A DNA stretch of 64,000 bases from Bdellovibrionota bacterium (GTDB taxonomy: Bacteria; Bdellovibrionota; Bdellovibrionia; Bdellovibrionales; Bdellovibrionaceae). Position numbers and translations under genes: made by a program. The DNA lies in NCBI GenBank assembly GCA_963170155.1, contig CAUJGP010000024.1:62001-126000 (forward strand). The letters are read 5' to 3'. The notes beneath the pieces are model-generated. The model made no database searches. It saw only the letters and a list, made by a program, of their open reading frames with translations, and was not told the DNA's origin. This document shows, piece after piece, positions 10,559 to 47,542 of this stretch; positions within the stretch are counted from its first letter, which is position 1; each line of letters opens with the position of its first letter.

Positions 10559-10987
10559 CTAAATTAAGTCGGGATCCAAGTACTGGTCTTTCGTTGGCAA
10601 TGACGGTTGAGGAGAATTCATGATCTGTTGTTCAAGGAAGAGATTGATGTGCTTTAGAATTTCAACCTCCGACTTTAATTGAGTGATCATTGTCTCTTTT
10701 TCAGAGAGGATTTGACTGTACGCACTTTTGAGCTCTTGAATTAAATCTTGAATAGACGCTGATAATGCCGGATTGGTGTCTGACTTACGATCTTCTGATC
10801 GATTTTGTAAAGGCTCAAATTGCATGTTTTTTTCAAAAGTATCCACTTCACTTTGAGGAATACGAATAAGATACCGTCCATTATCAATCTTTGTTTCAAG
10901 GCTTTGTGACTTTATACGCCGTCGAAGTGTGCTAATGCTCACTTTCTTAACAACTGCGTAATCAATGACTGAAAGCCATAAATCCAT
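10559..10987 (-). CDS. Helix-turn-helix DNA-binding protein with C-terminal coiled coil
   Basis: A 142-residue protein. Residues 8-50 (YAVVKKVSISTLRRRIKS...NGRYLIRIP) match a MerR/excisionase-like (HTH_17) winged helix: the helix-turn-helix VSISTLRRRI is followed by a beta-wing. Residues about 75-120 are a charged heptad-like segment (IQDLIQELKSAYSQILSEKE) predicted to form a coiled coil, so the protein probably acts as a dimer or larger. The start is ATG 10987 with GGGAG four to five bases upstream. A TGAGTATTCA repeat lies only 24 bp upstream of the start codon, the first of about ten in the adjoining region. This makes self-regulation, or binding to that region, plausible. That is inference; no specific family name is recognised. 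Confidence 0.7.
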   Translation of the reverse strand: MDLWLSVIDYAVVKKVSISTLRRRIKSQSLETKIDNGRYLIRIPQSEVDTFEKNMQFEPLQNRSEDRKSDTNPALSASIQDLIQELKSAYSQILSEKETMITQLKSEVEILKHINLFLEQQIMNSPQPSLPTKDQYLDPDLI

Positions 10988-11057
10988 AAATCTCCCATTT
11001 TGAGTGGGAATGAGTATTCAAAAAAAAATTTCTAAACGCAATGACTATTCATCTGAG

Positions 11058-11272
11058 TATTCAAAATCCACGTTATCCACAATATCCACAGGTATTCCCA
11101 CAGCATGAATAACCTTTAAGTACTCACTATCCACAATAGTATCCACAGTTGAATATTCATTGAATACTCAATATTAAAAAAGTTATCCACAGAACTAACA
11201 TTAATCCACATTATTATGCATAATATATATTCAACGAATATCCAATGAATACTCATCCGTGGATTTTGAATA
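11058..11272. repeat. Long-range inverted repeat bracketing the DnaA-box cluster
   Basis: TATTCAAAATCCACG at 11058-11072 is the exact reverse complement of CGTGGATTTTGAATA at 11258-11272. With the next four bases outward on each side the match is 18 of 19. Each arm combines one iteron-like half with one DnaA-box-like AAATCCACG. The 185 bp between the arms hold both perfect DnaA boxes and two of the phased repeat pairs. Confidence 0.6.
11064..11210 (+). other. Cluster of DnaA boxes
   Basis: Perfect TTATCCACA boxes are at 11073-11081 and 11183-11191. One-mismatch versions are ATATCCACA (11082-11090), CTATCCACA (11127-11135), GTATCCACA (11139-11147) and TAATCCACA (11202-11210), with AAATCCACG at 11064-11072 and a TTCCCACA core at 11095-11102. 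All point the same way on the plus strand. One AAATCCACG copy also occurs inverted (CGTGGATTT, 11258-11266). Two perfect and four near-perfect boxes within 140 bp are far above chance for a 9-mer. Confidence 0.75.
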
Positions 11273-11286
11273 ATCATGGCTACTCA

Positions 11287-11329
11287 AAATATCACAGTGA
11301 ATATTCATTGGATACTCACTGTGATATTT
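11287..11329. repeat. 43-bp near-perfect palindrome upstream of patatin gene
   Basis: Two 21-bp arms surround a single T at 11308. The outer 14 bp are perfect (AAATATCACAGTGA against TCACTGTGATATTT), and 19 of 21 positions pair overall. The inner part is a phased pair of the iteron-like repeats. It ends 64 bp before the patatin start codon, so it could be an operator over that promoter, or part of the repeat region's higher-order structure. Confidence 0.6.
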
Positions 11330-11393
11330 CCATGCAGTTGTAAATTTTAACAAATCATTTACGACTAAAGCCCTATCGTGGAATACTTGAGAT

Positions 11394-12593
11394 ATGAGAA
11401 TACGCGAAAAGAAAAAAATCGCTTTAGCCCTGAGTGGTGGTGGAATAAAGGCTGCGGCGTTTCATATTGGTGTGTGCCTTGCATTGAAAGAAAAAGGTTT
11501 TCGATTTCTAGGAGGATCTCCTGAAACTGTCCAAAGATCTTCTAAACCCAATGATCCCATGACTATTCGTTTGTATGTAGGATCAAGTGCGGGGTCTTTT
11601 ATCAGCTCGGTCCTCGCTTCTGGGTATACAATCGAAAGTCTGGTGAATGCCTTTGAAGTGGGGCTTGGATACAATAAGGTTTTTAATGAGTTTGGTCTCA
11701 ATGAATTAAAACCACTCACTTATCGAAATATGTTTGCCATCAATACTAGGGGGATCATTAAATCAGTGCCCCATTTTTTTCGTAAAAAATCAATCCTCTC
11801 CGGAGGCTTAGAATCTTTACTGAAACATGCTTTTGGGATTAACGGGATTTTTACAACGGGAGGAGTTGAATCTTATCTTCGAAAACATGTTCTTAAAATT
11901 AATAATTTCAGCGACCTGGGCGTAGAGCTTTTCATTGTCGGCACTCAACTCAATCATTCTAGAAAAGTTATCTTCGGAGACTTCAAAGAAGTTTCCAAAG
12001 ATGCACGCATTATGTATGCCAATTTTGCACGAATCAGTGAAGCTGTTGCAGCATCAACAGCGCTCCCCCCTGTTTTTGCTCCTTATGGTATTAAACAAAA
12101 TAATGGCAAAGAGCTTTATTTTTTTGATGGAGAAATCCGCGATACACTTTCCACCCATGTTGCTGCTGATCATGGCGCCGATCTTGTAATTTCAAGCTAC
12201 TCCGTGCAACCCTATCACTACACTCCAGAACTCGGAAGCCTTCATCAATACGGAATTCCTGTCATTATTAATCAAGCTTTATACCAGGTAATTCAGCAAA
12301 AAATTGAAAAACATATTGAACATCAACAAGAAATTCGTTCCATTTACAACGCCGTGGAAGGCTACCTCCGCCAGGCTCATGTGGAACCTATCCACCGCAA
12401 CCGAATCTTAGAAATTATTGAAAAGCGTGTGAATTTCAAACCTAATGTGGATTATATCTATATTCATCCACGCCCACAAAATCATGAAATGTTTTTTGTG
12501 GATCACTTTAGTTTAAACCCAAAAATCATGGCACGCATTGCTCGAATTGGTTTTAAATCGGCCATTTCTACGATGAGAAAATACGGGCTGTAA
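11394..12593 (+). CDS. Patatin-like phospholipase
   Basis: A 399-residue protein with the patatin lipase fold: the oxyanion loop SGGGIKA (14-20), the nucleophile elbow GSSAG (63-67, Ser65), and the catalytic-dyad Asp in DGE (Asp245). Patatins hydrolyse acyl chains from phospholipids. There is no clear signal peptide; the N terminus is basic (MRIREKKK), so it is cytoplasmic or exported by another route. The C-terminal 130 residues (about 270-399) are an uncharacterised extension with a helical H/E/Q-rich part. It is divergent from the HTH gene across the DnaA-box/repeat region, which probably contains its promoter. The ribosome binding site is weak (GAGAT). Confidence 0.88.
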   Translation: MRIREKKKIALALSGGGIKAAAFHIGVCLALKEKGFRFLGGSPETVQRSSKPNDPMTIRLYVGSSAGSFISSVLASGYTIESLVNAFEVGLGYNKVFNEFGLNELKPLTYRNMFAINTRGIIKSVPHFFRKKSILSGGLESLLKHAFGINGIFTTGGVESYLRKHVLKINNFSDLGVELFIVGTQLNHSRKVIFGDFKEVSKDARIMYANFARISEAVAASTALPPVFAPYGIKQNNGKELYFFDGEIRDTLSTHVAADHGADLVISSYSVQPYHYTPELGSLHQYGIPVIINQALYQVIQQKIEKHIEHQQEIRSIYNAVEGYLRQAHVEPIHRNRILEIIEKRVNFKPNVDYIYIHPRPQNHEMFFVDHFSLNPKIMARIARIGFKSAISTMRKYGL

Positions 12594-12872: not shown

Positions 12873-13628
12873 ATGAAATCACAATTTATTTTTATAAGCT
12901 TGATTGTTTTAAGCTTAAACGGATGGGGGCTATCAACCATTCAAACCAATCTCTCTTCTGGAGCCATAGAGTTACAAAACTCAATCCAAGACGATTTTCT
13001 ATCTTACTCCGCCGAAAGAGACGGTTTAAGAAACTTAAGTCTCTTTAACGCTCTCTCTTCTTCAACAGATAAATTTCTCACATTGGAGGCTACCTACGAT
13101 AAAGGAACACCTGTTTCCTTCCAGCAAATTAATGGAGTCTATGCTGGGTTATGCTATAACAAATATGCCTATTCTAATAAGAAAGAGGATGATTACTACC
13201 GTTATCATCCCCTCAGTGGAGCTCTCGTTGTGAAGGAATTTGAACCAGAGGCAAACAATGGCCCTCTCTTTCCTGCAAAAGAAAAAAAGGTCTTGTATGG
13301 TTTTAATAACGAAACAGGTCATTTTTCTCAACTGACAGCAGAGCAAATCATAGAGGAACTATACTTTTGGAAGATAGGGGATAATTTTAAAAGCGAAATT
13401 CTTTCTTTATCACCATTAAAAGTTAAAACTTCTACTGATCTTGATTATACATCTCCCAAAAGATTTAGTGAGATTCTAGGCTTTGTTCTCTATCAAAATT
13501 ATATCGTGATGAAAGTATCCGTGGGTGAAAAAACCACTGTAAAATGGGAACAAGGAGACCAACGTCGAGAGACAACTATTCGAAGAAACGAAGGAATTAG
13601 ATACTGCTACTTTTTTGATAGAAAGTAG
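12873..13628 (+). CDS. Secreted protein of unknown function, tandem paralogue A
   Basis: A 251-residue protein with a clear signal peptide (MKSQFIFISLIVLSLNGWG, cleavage near residue 19-20) and no recognised domain. The mature part is rich in Tyr, Ser and charged residues. It contains AGLCYNKYAYSNKKEDDYYRY near the middle and ends in a YCYFFDRK motif; one central and one C-terminal cysteine could form a disulfide. It is closely related along its whole length to the gene at 13835-14611. The two are most alike in the first 100 residues and differ in an indel-rich region around 155-190. The strong AAAGAAAGG ribosome binding site and the leader hairpin are shared. Function unknown. Confidence 0.8.
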   Translation: MKSQFIFISLIVLSLNGWGLSTIQTNLSSGAIELQNSIQDDFLSYSAERDGLRNLSLFNALSSSTDKFLTLEATYDKGTPVSFQQINGVYAGLCYNKYAYSNKKEDDYYRYHPLSGALVVKEFEPEANNGPLFPAKEKKVLYGFNNETGHFSQLTAEQIIEELYFWKIGDNFKSEILSLSPLKVKTSTDLDYTSPKRFSEILGFVLYQNYIVMKVSVGEKTTVKWEQGDQRRETTIRRNEGIRYCYFFDRK

Positions 13629-13662
13629 TTTTACTACAGATGAATAACTTTCATTCGTTAAA

Positions 13663-13687
13663 GCAAATGAGATTTTGTCTCATTTGC
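13663..13687. terminator. Hairpin after paralogue A
   Basis: GCAAATGAGA (13663-13672) and TCTCATTTGC (13678-13687) form a perfect 10-bp stem with a TTTTG loop, 35 bp after the stop of paralogue A. There is no strong T-run downstream, so it may be an imperfect intrinsic terminator or an mRNA-stabilising hairpin. Confidence 0.45.
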
Positions 13688-13767
13688 GAGTTCATTGCTC
13701 ATCACTTTTGCTGTTTGGGGTTATGGATTTATTATCAGTAAGGTTATTAATCTAACAAATACATATC

Positions 13768-13808
13768 GAGAGCTTTTTTAGAAGAATTTCTCTGATTCAA
13801 AAGCTCTC
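13768..13808 (+). repeat. Leader hairpin, copy 2
   Basis: This is an exact second copy of the 41-base hairpin at 12806-12846, with stem GAGAGCTTTT/AAAAGCTCTC. It ends 26 bp before the start of paralogue B, the same distance as in copy 1. The conservation of a non-coding stretch within a duplicated unit whose coding parts have diverged suggests it is functional. Confidence 0.6.
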
Positions 13809-13834
13809 AACTAACACTAAAGAAAGGTCATTTT

Positions 13835-14611
13835 ATGAAATCACAATTTATTTTTATAGGCTTGATTGTTTTGAGCTTAAACGGATGGGGGCAATCACCC
13901 ATTCAAACTGATCTCTCTTCTGGAACCATAGAGTTACAAAACTCAATCCAAGATGATTTTCTATCCTACTCCGCTGAAAGAGAGAGTTTAAAAAACTTAA
14001 GTCTCTTTAACGCTCTCTCTTCGTCAGCAGATAAATTTCTCACGTTGAAGGCTGCCTACGATAAAGGAACACCTGTTTCCTTCCAGCAAATTTATGGAGT
14101 CTACGCTGGAGTATGCTACCAAAAATACGCCTATTCTAATACGAAAGAAGACGACTACTACCGTTATAATCCCATGAGTGGAGCTCTCGTTGTGAAAGAG
14201 TTTGAGCCTGAAATAGATAATGGCCCTCTCTTTCCGGAGAAAGAAAAAAAGGTCTTACAATTTGACTACACCCAAAAAGATTATTTTTCTCAACATACAG
14301 CAGAGCAAATTGTGAAGGAGTTACTTGCTTTTGAAAACTCTTGGAAAAAGAACTATCGTTTTAGAAGTGAGATTCTCACGTTATCACCATTAAAAATTAA
14401 AACCTCCACTAATGCTGTTAATCCTAATAATGAATCTTACATAAGGCTCAGCGATATTCATAGTTTTGTTCTCTATCAAAACTATATCGTGACCAAAGTC
14501 TTCGCCGGCGAAACTAGAACTGTGCAATGGCGACAGCAGAACTCTAATCAACAAGTAACAATTCAAAAAGATGAAGACTTTAAATACTGTTACTTTTTTG
14601 ATAAAAAGTAA
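13835..14611 (+). CDS. Secreted protein of unknown function, tandem paralogue B
   Basis: A 258-residue paralogue of the preceding gene. It has nearly the same signal peptide (MKSQFIFIGLIVLSLNGWG) and mature start (QTDLSSGTIELQNSIQDD), the same AGVCYQKYAYSNTKEDDYYRY segment, and the same C terminus YCYFFDKK. It is seven residues longer because of extra residues around 160-175 (FENSWKKNYRF). The unit, including its leader hairpin, arose by tandem duplication about 962 bp apart and has since diverged. No known domain is recognised and the neighbours (patatin lipase, secreted protease) only hint at an exported function. Confidence 0.8.
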   Translation: MKSQFIFIGLIVLSLNGWGQSPIQTDLSSGTIELQNSIQDDFLSYSAERESLKNLSLFNALSSSADKFLTLKAAYDKGTPVSFQQIYGVYAGVCYQKYAYSNTKEDDYYRYNPMSGALVVKEFEPEIDNGPLFPEKEKKVLQFDYTQKDYFSQHTAEQIVKELLAFENSWKKNYRFRSEILTLSPLKIKTSTNAVNPNNESYIRLSDIHSFVLYQNYIVTKVFAGETRTVQWRQQNSNQQVTIQKDEDFKYCYFFDKK

Positions 14612-36645: not shown

Positions 36646-37773
36646 TCAGTATTTCATTGGCATCAGAACGCAAGTGTAATTTGACTTATCGTGAATTCTA
36701 ATTAAAAGAGGAGAGTTCGGAGCCATGAGCTGGAGATCAACAAGTTCTGAATTATCTGCAGATAACATCTCCAATAAATAACGAGCATTTAAAGTGGCCT
36801 TAAAGTCAACGCCCTTGTAATCTATCTCAATTTCATCAAAAGCTTCTCCAATTTCTTGTCCGCTGGTGCTGATTTGAACTTTTGATTCTTTAAAATCTAA
36901 CATAATGCTTTTTGATTTCTGATGAGCATGAAAAGAAACCCGCTTCACGGCGCTATGAAGTGATTGTCTTGGTACAATGATATGATGATTAATTTTTTGA
37001 GGAATGAATTTTAAAAAATTTGGATATTTACCTTCTATCAAACGAATAAGTAAAACAGTCTCTTTGTGCTTAACAACCAGTTGTGCACCCTCAATGGCAA
37101 GTTCCACAGAATTATCCACAGTTTCTAAAAGTTTATTCAACTCATTCAAACCTTTACGAGGAATAATAACCCCATTAAGTTTAGAATTATCTTCCCCATA
37201 ATTAACTTTATCCACAGAGTTGCTAACAACTGCAAGACGATGGCCATCCGTTGCTGTCATTTTAATATGAAACTGTTGGTCTTCCCAATAACGTTCAAAG
37301 TGAACAGCATTGAGGTGATATCGTGTATCGTCGTTTGATATGCAAAAAAGAACTTTAGAAATCATTTCTTTTAAAACAGAGGCTTTAATTGTGATAAAAT
37401 CACAACTTCCAATCACTGGAAAAACCGGATATTGATGAGGATCACTTCCTTGCAATTTAGATTGATAACGCTTTTGTTGGATTTGAACCCAAAAATTTTC
37501 CTGAGATTTTATTGTGACAGGTAGATCATTAAGTTCTTTTACAATCTCATTCAGATACTTCGCATGAACTGTGGCTTTGCCTTTTACAACAATCTTGGCT
37601 GGAGCTTTTGCAGCAATACTGATTTCAAGGTCTGTTGCATATACAGAGACATGATCATCTTCTGCTTCTATCAATAAATTAATCAGATAAGGCATGTTGG
37701 TCTTTTTTTCAGCTACTGTTTGTGCTAAATAAATAACCTCCTGTAGATCTTTTTTTTCTATTTCAAAATGCAT
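36646..37773 (-). CDS. dnaN: DNA polymerase III sliding clamp (beta subunit)
   Basis: A 375-residue three-domain clamp that begins MHFEIEKKDLQEVIYLAQ and ends with the conserved SNYTCVLMPMKY, the family's typical PMR-like C-terminal end. A conserved middle segment is KMTATDGHRLAVVS. The frame extends to ATG 37785, but the GGGGGA between the two ATGs is the ribosome binding site of ATG 37773, so that is the start. The coding strand carries two TTATCCACA matches on the plus strand (37112-37120 and 37208-37216). It is 18 bp before recF and 221 bp after dnaA. Confidence 0.95.
   Translation of the reverse strand: MHFEIEKKDLQEVIYLAQTVAEKKTNMPYLINLLIEAEDDHVSVYATDLEISIAAKAPAKIVVKGKATVHAKYLNEIVKELNDLPVTIKSQENFWVQIQQKRYQSKLQGSDPHQYPVFPVIGSCDFITIKASVLKEMISKVLFCISNDDTRYHLNAVHFERYWEDQQFHIKMTATDGHRLAVVSNSVDKVNYGEDNSKLNGVIIPRKGLNELNKLLETVDNSVELAIEGAQLVVKHKETVLLIRLIEGKYPNFLKFIPQKINHHIIVPRQSLHSAVKRVSFHAHQKSKSIMLDFKESKVQISTSGQEIGEAFDEIEIDYKGVDFKATLNARYLLEMLSADNSELVDLQLMAPNSPLLIRIHDKSNYTCVLMPMKY
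37112..37216 (+). other. Two perfect DnaA-box sequences inside dnaN
   Basis: TTATCCACA occurs at 37112-37120 and 37208-37216, 96 bp apart in the same orientation, within coding sequence. They encode the protein as well (parts of VDNS and VDKV), so they may be coincidental. Their distance from the intergenic box cluster is 0.7-0.8 kb. Confidence 0.35.
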
Positions 37774-37816
37774 CTTTTCCCCCATCTATATAACTTCTAA
37801 TTATTATTTTTAAATC

Positions 37817-37831
37817 TAGTAGTAGTAGTAG
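37817..37831 (+). repeat. (TAG)5 trinucleotide run, DnaA-trio-like
   Basis: Five TAG units lie 44 bp upstream of the dnaN start, next to a T/A-rich tract. DnaA-trio elements, where DnaA melts origins, consist of TAG/TAA-type triplets read 5' to 3' on one strand and sit next to DnaA boxes. Here the nearest intergenic boxes begin about 110 bp further on, so the spacing is atypical. Confidence 0.4.
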
Positions 37832-37941
37832 CATTATGTATTCTGTAGATTGTTACCTAAACCTTTAATTTTAATGAACTTTCAATGTTGATAAAGGTGT
37901 GTAAAAAAGCTCCTCATTCTTTATTATTTTGTTGAAAACTC

Positions 37942-38020
37942 ATTTCCACAAAAGAGTCCACAAGGCTTTCCACAGGTTTATACAAAATCCACAATCACAA
38001 CCCGTTGATATTGTGGATTC
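37942..38020 (+). other. DnaA-box cluster between dnaA and dnaN (likely part of oriC)
   Basis: Boxes with conserved TCCACA core lie at 37942-37950 (ATTTCCACA), 37954-37962 (GAGTCCACA), 37966-37974 (CTTTCCACA) and 37985-37993 (AAATCCACA). A reversed one (TGTGGATTC) lies at 38012-38020 in the 3' end of dnaA. The first three are spaced 12 bp apart. None is a perfect TTATCCACA, but the position between dnaA and dnaN and the divergence of transcription nearby support an origin function. Confidence 0.6.
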
Positions 38021-46637: not shown

Positions 46638-46665
46638 CTAACTTGTTCCACGTGGAACAAGTTAG
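46638..46665. promoter_or_regulatory. parS-like centromere site (28-bp perfect palindrome)
   Basis: The half-site CTAACTTGTTCCAC (46638-46651) is mirrored exactly by GTGGAACAAGTTAG (46652-46665). The 16-bp core TGTTCCACGTGGAACA matches the general parS form (B. subtilis TGTTTCACGTGAAACA) with the central CACGTG. It is about 1 kb upstream of parA, as expected for the ParB nucleation site near the origin. The arms extend beyond the usual 16 bp. Confidence 0.8.
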
Positions 46666-47526: not shown

Positions 47527-47542
47527 TGTTCTACGTGGAACA
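47527..47542. promoter_or_regulatory. Second parS-like site
   Basis: TGTTCTACGTGGAACA differs from the palindrome core at 46644-46659 by one base (T for C). It lies 85 bp upstream of the parA start, between divergent genes, and may serve both as a parS site and as an operator for parAB autoregulation. Confidence 0.65.

Follow-up and report, generated by a model that had tools for sequence, protein, structure and literature searches.

A composite array of DnaA boxes and palindromes near oriC in a Bdellovibrionota bacterium: probably a DnaA/regulator hub, not an origin

Introduction

What is the role of a dense array of DnaA boxes and short palindromes in a gene-free region some 27 kb from dnaA? 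The region lies in a 64,000-nucleotide stretch of a Bdellovibrionota genome (assembly GCA_963170155.1, contig CAUJGP010000024.1, positions 62,001 to 126,000), hereafter the window. In a preliminary description it was regarded as a possible true or second origin of replication, an integrated plasmid origin or a locus titrating DnaA. The limits given there, 10988 to 11393, correspond exactly to the gap that separates two divergent ORFs, one starting at 10987 (-) and the other at 11394 (+). The features considered below are listed in Table 1.

Table 1. Coordinates, strand and basis of assignment of the features of the array, its flanking genes and oriC (positions in the window).
Feature	Position	Strand	Basis
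Divergent intergenic region with composite DnaA-box/palindrome array	10988..11393		gap between the two ORF starts
Gene for a 142-aa MerR/BldC-like winged-HTH and coiled-coil protein, probable palindrome binder	10559..10987	-	ORF, homologs, AF2 model, fold matches
Patatin-like phospholipase gene, divergent partner of the regulator	11394..12593	+	Pfam PF01734, E 5.5e-18
Degenerate box AAATCCACG	11064		precedes the TTATCCACA-ATATCCACA pair
Abutting DnaA boxes TTATCCACA-ATATCCACA, 9-bp period	11073..11090	+	motif scan; aligned with the three-box run of G017
DnaA boxes CTATCCACA (11127) and GTATCCACA (11139)	11127..11147	+	motif scan
DnaA boxes TTATCCACA (11183) and TAATCCACA (11202)	11183..11210	+	motif scan
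Palindromes TGAGTATTCA (11011), TGACTATTCA (11042), TGAGTATTCA (11054)	11011..11063		motif scan
Palindromes TAAGTACTCA (11117, 1 mismatch), TGAATATTCA (11150), TGAATACTCA (11161)	11117..11170		11150/11161 spacing of 11 bp
Palindromes TGAATACTCA (11246), TGAATAATCA (11267), TGGCTACTCA (11277, 1 mismatch)	11246..11318 segment		motif scan
Palindromes TGAATATTCA (11298), TGGATACTCA (11309, 1 mismatch)	11246..11318 segment		motif scan
Composite module, site-box-box-box-site-site, common to sister G017	11054..11175	+	inverted relative to flanking genes between the genomes
oriC, dnaN-dnaA intergenic: NNWTCCACA boxes, AT-rich DNA, DnaA-trio	37786..37994		GC-skew minimum nearby
DnaA-trio TAGTAGTAGTAGTAG in oriC	37817-37831		run shared with G017 and other genomes of the order

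Two motifs in one intergenic region

The region, of 31% GC, contains the two perfect and four one-mismatch DnaA boxes originally reported, TTATCCACA at 11073 and 11183 and the one-mismatch boxes at 11082, 11127, 11139 and 11202. All six are on the + strand. Shuffled sequences (first-order Markov, same 406 bp, n=2000) averaged 0.27 boxes, and none had more than 3. The repeats estimated at about ten were resolved into eight exact TGANTANTCA palindromes, six of them of the form TGARTAYTCA, and three with one mismatch. In the same shuffles exact palindromes averaged 0.03 and never reached the observed number (0/2000), and for sites with at most one mismatch, of which the locus has 11, the average was 0.56 and the highest count 6. 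The preliminary description also mentioned three repeat pairs with an 11-bp period, and slightly more were found: four pairs are 11 bp apart (11150/11161, 11298/11309 and, with 2-mismatch members, 11235/11246 and 11106/11117), one is 10 bp apart (11267/11277) and one 12 bp (11042/11054). Spacings of 10-12 bp place the sites on the same face of the helix.

Background density was determined over 899 kb (31% of the genome) together with whole-genome pattern searches. The locus was the densest 400-bp window both for NNWTCCACA (6, with oriC next at 4) and for TGANTANTCA (8, all others at most 1), and the only two TATCCACA-N(0-30)-TATCCACA pairs of the whole 2.85 Mb genome are located here. Elsewhere in this genome, and in the relative G036, TGARTAYTCA stays near background. 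A sigma-70 scan of the intergenic region revealed no promoter better than chance.

The regulator and its divergent partner

A homolog of the 142-aa regulator is encoded by 59 of 60 relatives and, more widely in the phylum, by 169 of the 192 genomes; in G036 it lies at about 3,747,459-3,747,914. Its AF2 model comprises a winged HTH (residues 3-54) and a single long helix (73-124, 52 residues) with high pLDDT. The predicted architecture has both parts of a MerR/BldC-type wHTH plus coiled-coil layout. The best fold matches, with modest scores, were BldC and Xis (excisionases); the BldC match (Z 5.2, 50 aligned, rmsd 3.2) has an ordinary Z and supports the layout only. Foldseek also listed RacA-DNA, and pSK1 Par came up in a second-look list, both weak and further down. 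Among profile matches, Pfam DUF3972 was marginal (26.8 bits against a gathering cut-off of 26.2) and was matched by 3 of 20 family members at E 0.01, while HTH_17 was matched weakly by 2 of 20. Neither Pfam nor NCBIfam gave a KfrA, RacA or pSK1 Par family match at E 0.01, and fold matches to these were weak. When solved structures were searched by sequence and profile, the matches were all unspecific coiled-coil proteins. Literature searches on DUF3972 and on patatin in Bdellovibrio yielded nothing functional.

Of 66 family genomes, 62 have the patatin gene. Its divergent pairing with the regulator is a conserved trait of the order, and several distant families in the phylum likewise have patatin beside HTH matches. 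Wherever the regulator gene shares a contig with dnaA, the two are 27-47 kb apart in genomes of the order, and in the present genome the regulator gene and its array are about 27 kb away. The relatives checked have it on the rpmH/yidC side of dnaA. Its place on the dnaN side in the present genome is apparently due to an inversion that spans about 54 kb and has its centre near dnaA, as judged from gene order. The apparently inverted segment is bordered on both sides of dnaA by related genes, inverted copies of one gene, at 12873-14611 of the window (12.9-14.6 kb) and at C24:129174-129941 (67.2-67.9 kb; L084:3174-3941). As a separate observation, the lipase gene is adjoined by a tandem pair of genes for similar, probably secreted proteins (12873-13628 and 13835-14611).

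Palindromes across the order, boxes in two genomes

The HTH-patatin intergenic regions were compared at 74 other loci from the order. Exact TGANTANTCA occurred 37 times there against 0.42 expected; with at most one mismatch there were 180 sites (9.2 expected), spread over 66 loci. The 74 loci are related, so the counts are not independent, and the motif recurs in several families at different places. No site was found for the reversed pattern or for any of ten control palindromes built in the same way. Close to its start, the regulator gene encodes a conserved E-Y-S whose codons can also read TGARTAYTCA, so coding positions of this kind were dropped from the counts. Given this order-wide enrichment, the neighbouring regulator most likely has its operators in these palindromes.

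Most relatives have about 2-3 such sites in this intergenic region, and the operator has grown to 11-21 sites only in the present genome and its sister G017. Tandem pairs of 21 nt (two sites one base apart, one mismatch allowed) were detected in 11 of 119 genomes; those of the present genome (2/2) and of G017 (7/7) all lie between regulator and lipase, where G003 and G009 have them as well. Beyond this region, close TGARTAYTCA pairs were noted in or beside mnmE and rsmG near oriC (G016:C60:10941-10961 and G009:C57:2888-3209). In G109, a distant member of the phylum, six TGANTANTCA fall within 1.1 kb (L156:3538-4661), mostly inside a 656-aa ORF, 1-2 kb from a regulator homolog (2194-2520, -).

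The DnaA boxes have a different distribution. Among the sampled genomes a box cluster at the regulator-lipase locus was found only in the present genome and in G017, where all close TATCCACA pairs are at this locus (2/2 and 3/3, respectively), whereas none of the close pairs of other genomes (60 relatives) is in the regulator-lipase intergenic region. As for the conservation expected in relatives, it thus holds order-wide for the palindromes and extends no further than the sister genome for the boxes. A segment of about 60 bp, with one palindrome and the box run, is 80% identical between the two genomes (E 7e-10), and the local alignment score of the module is 59 against a maximum of 26 in 300 shuffles. 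The module has opposite orientations relative to the flanking genes, and each genome carries six boxes, all in one direction. A flipped module that keeps six same-direction boxes argues for box number over a fixed origin architecture, and its intactness after the flip is explained more easily by a protein-loading hub than by an origin or a single promoter.

A probable composite DnaA/regulator hub

It is probable, on balance, that an autoregulated operator array has become a composite hub for DnaA and the regulator, which serves DnaA titration or replication-coupled transcription and is not an origin. We infer the occupant of the palindromes, the binding of DnaA here in cells and the effect of both as follows. 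The region would be the shared operator and promoter of the phylum-wide wHTH coiled-coil regulator and the divergent patatin-like lipase. A coiled-coil dimer may sit on each palindrome, and cooperation between sites 10-12 bp apart, one helical turn, would give autoregulation, so that the regulator would control its own gene and perhaps that of the lipase. In the present genome and G017 this operator, expanded to 11-21 sites, would have gained its six one-direction boxes, onto which DnaA may load as an array. DnaA could then couple transcription of the pair to the DnaA-ATP level and gene dosage. Alternatively or in addition, since the hub is copied early, DnaA could be kept from oriC soon after initiation, as in datA-like titration.

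A datA-like role is plausible, as judged by comparison with the known locus. The cluster lies outside yet near oriC, 27 kb from dnaA, and is the densest in 0.9 Mb. The datA locus is always near oriC (PMC4585315), and in E. coli DnaA boxes concentrate there (PMC12371093); retention of DnaA after early duplication has been proposed for datA and for these oriC-near boxes (PMC4585315, PMC12371093). Like datA, DARS and the chromosomal DnaA-box clusters of E. coli, the present locus is a non-oriC cluster close to oriC with a comparable number of boxes (five to six), and like datA, with its IHF sites, it has sites for a second protein beside them. It differs in that these second sites are predicted to serve a MerR-like coiled-coil regulator within the regulator's own promoter region, and in that the cluster is known from two sampled genomes only. 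In B. subtilis, Rok is required for some DnaA binding away from oriC (PMC4447404); predicted DnaA binding off oriC together with another DNA-binding protein is common to both cases, but the second protein is different and the boxes here are strong consensus boxes. For the regulator part, KfrA of RA3 provides a parallel, being autoregulated through repeated operators (PMC7783346) and having an N-terminal HTH, an alpha-helical coiled-coil tail and repeated sites in its own promoter region. In contrast to KfrA, the regulator is chromosomal and phylum-wide, has a short tail and palindromic 10-bp sites, gives no KfrA family match at E 0.01 and has DnaA boxes added to its array.

Several observations weigh against the hub. 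The boxes are present in two sampled genomes only and are therefore no general feature of the order; 11-21 sites exceed what simple autoregulation needs; the locus has no good sigma-70 promoter pair; and identity between the present genome and G017 is only 39% for the regulator, compared with 80% for DnaA. Moreover, TTATCCACA is not required by the Bdellovibrio DnaA consensus, and the affinities of the boxes are thus guesses from consensus.

Anchoring and origin readings

The main rival explanation, itself rather unlikely, is an origin-proximal anchor or centromere-like site, where the regulator would coat the array and organise or tether the origin region, with DnaA as the link to replication. 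The wHTH-then-coiled-coil layout of the regulator is that of RacA, RocS and pSK1 Par, proteins compared in PMC11500499, and RacA-DNA and pSK1 Par are among its weak fold matches. In the order its gene keeps a distance of 27-47 kb to dnaA wherever the two share a contig, its nearness to oriC outlasted the inversion around oriC, and the origin region of Bdellovibrio must be anchored to the pole by a yet unknown complex (PMC11318664). Nevertheless, most relatives have only about 2-3 sites, the conserved distance may merely reflect conserved synteny, the conserved divergence with the lipase gene suggests ordinary regulation, and a ParABS system has its parS-like sites nearer oriC. While RacA, RocS and pSK1 Par share with the present system an origin-linked gene and array as well as a MerR-type wHTH and coiled coil, the regulator has a single array at its own gene and not sites spread around oriC. 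A RacA-like spread of binding sites was looked for and rejected, there being one cluster only with the others at background. The array was also considered as parS and found to be unlike it; the parS-like palindromes TGTTCCACGTGGAACA and TGTTCTACGTGGAACA adjoin parA at 46644-46659 and 47527-47542. In a bolder version, for which the chances appear slim, the phylum-wide wHTH coiled-coil protein would nucleate at its own array and, together with box-recruited DnaA, form a complex near the origin that would license or anchor a Bdellovibrio-type origin.

That a second origin fires here, alongside or in place of the dnaA-linked oriC, is highly improbable. Six DnaA boxes, iteron-like repeats and AT-rich DNA would suit an origin, and one that lies 27 kb from oriC and fires only rarely would hardly show in the skew. 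Cumulative GC skew, which had been proposed as a check, has one minimum, in the window at 39 kb beside dnaA, and does not change direction at 11 kb. An intact oriC lies between dnaA and dnaN; its boxes match the Bdellovibrio consensus, and its run of five DnaA-trios recurs in the dnaA-dnaN regions of G017 and G036. No such run was found at the 11-kb locus. The earlier statement that the dnaA-linked origin has only degenerate boxes is correct in that TTATCCACA is missing there, and incorrect in that its boxes fit the published consensus NN(A/T)TCCACA (PMC5124646) and stand with a conserved DnaA-trio. The 11-kb locus shares NNWTCCACA boxes with the B. bacteriovorus oriC (PMC5124646), yet oriC in these genomes lies in dnaA-dnaN and carries the DnaA-trio, and the locus has neither. 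The arrangement and orientation of its boxes differ even in sister G017, and the boxes are missing from other relatives. As GC skew, oriC comparison and DnaA-trio all point to dnaA-dnaN, the readings as true, second or secondary-chromosome origin are unsupported. Two perfect DnaA boxes were also noticed within the dnaN coding sequence, at 37112 and 37208, about 0.7-0.9 kb from oriC.

A remnant of an integrated iteron plasmid or of a Vibrio chromosome-2-type origin can be practically dismissed: the likeness is a superficial layout of repeats, DnaA boxes and a DNA-binding gene, whereas Pfam and NCBIfam scans of the neighbouring gene found no Rep or RctB-type initiator and no replication-initiator domain, and this 142-aa regulator has been inherited vertically through the phylum together with its neighbour, with which it forms a conserved divergent pair.

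Significance

In Bdellovibrio, a single pole-located origin is thought to fire per round, and no anchor or licensing factor is known for it (PMC11318664). The regulator described here is a concrete and testable candidate for a link between DnaA and cell-cycle control; descriptions of such loci in this phylum are scarce. Its candidacy is based on the order-wide linkage to dnaA and on a probable operator motif of its own, which in one lineage is joined by a cluster of DnaA boxes within the array. Even a modest reading still provides an unnamed, phylum-wide protein family with a predicted binding motif and a probable target.
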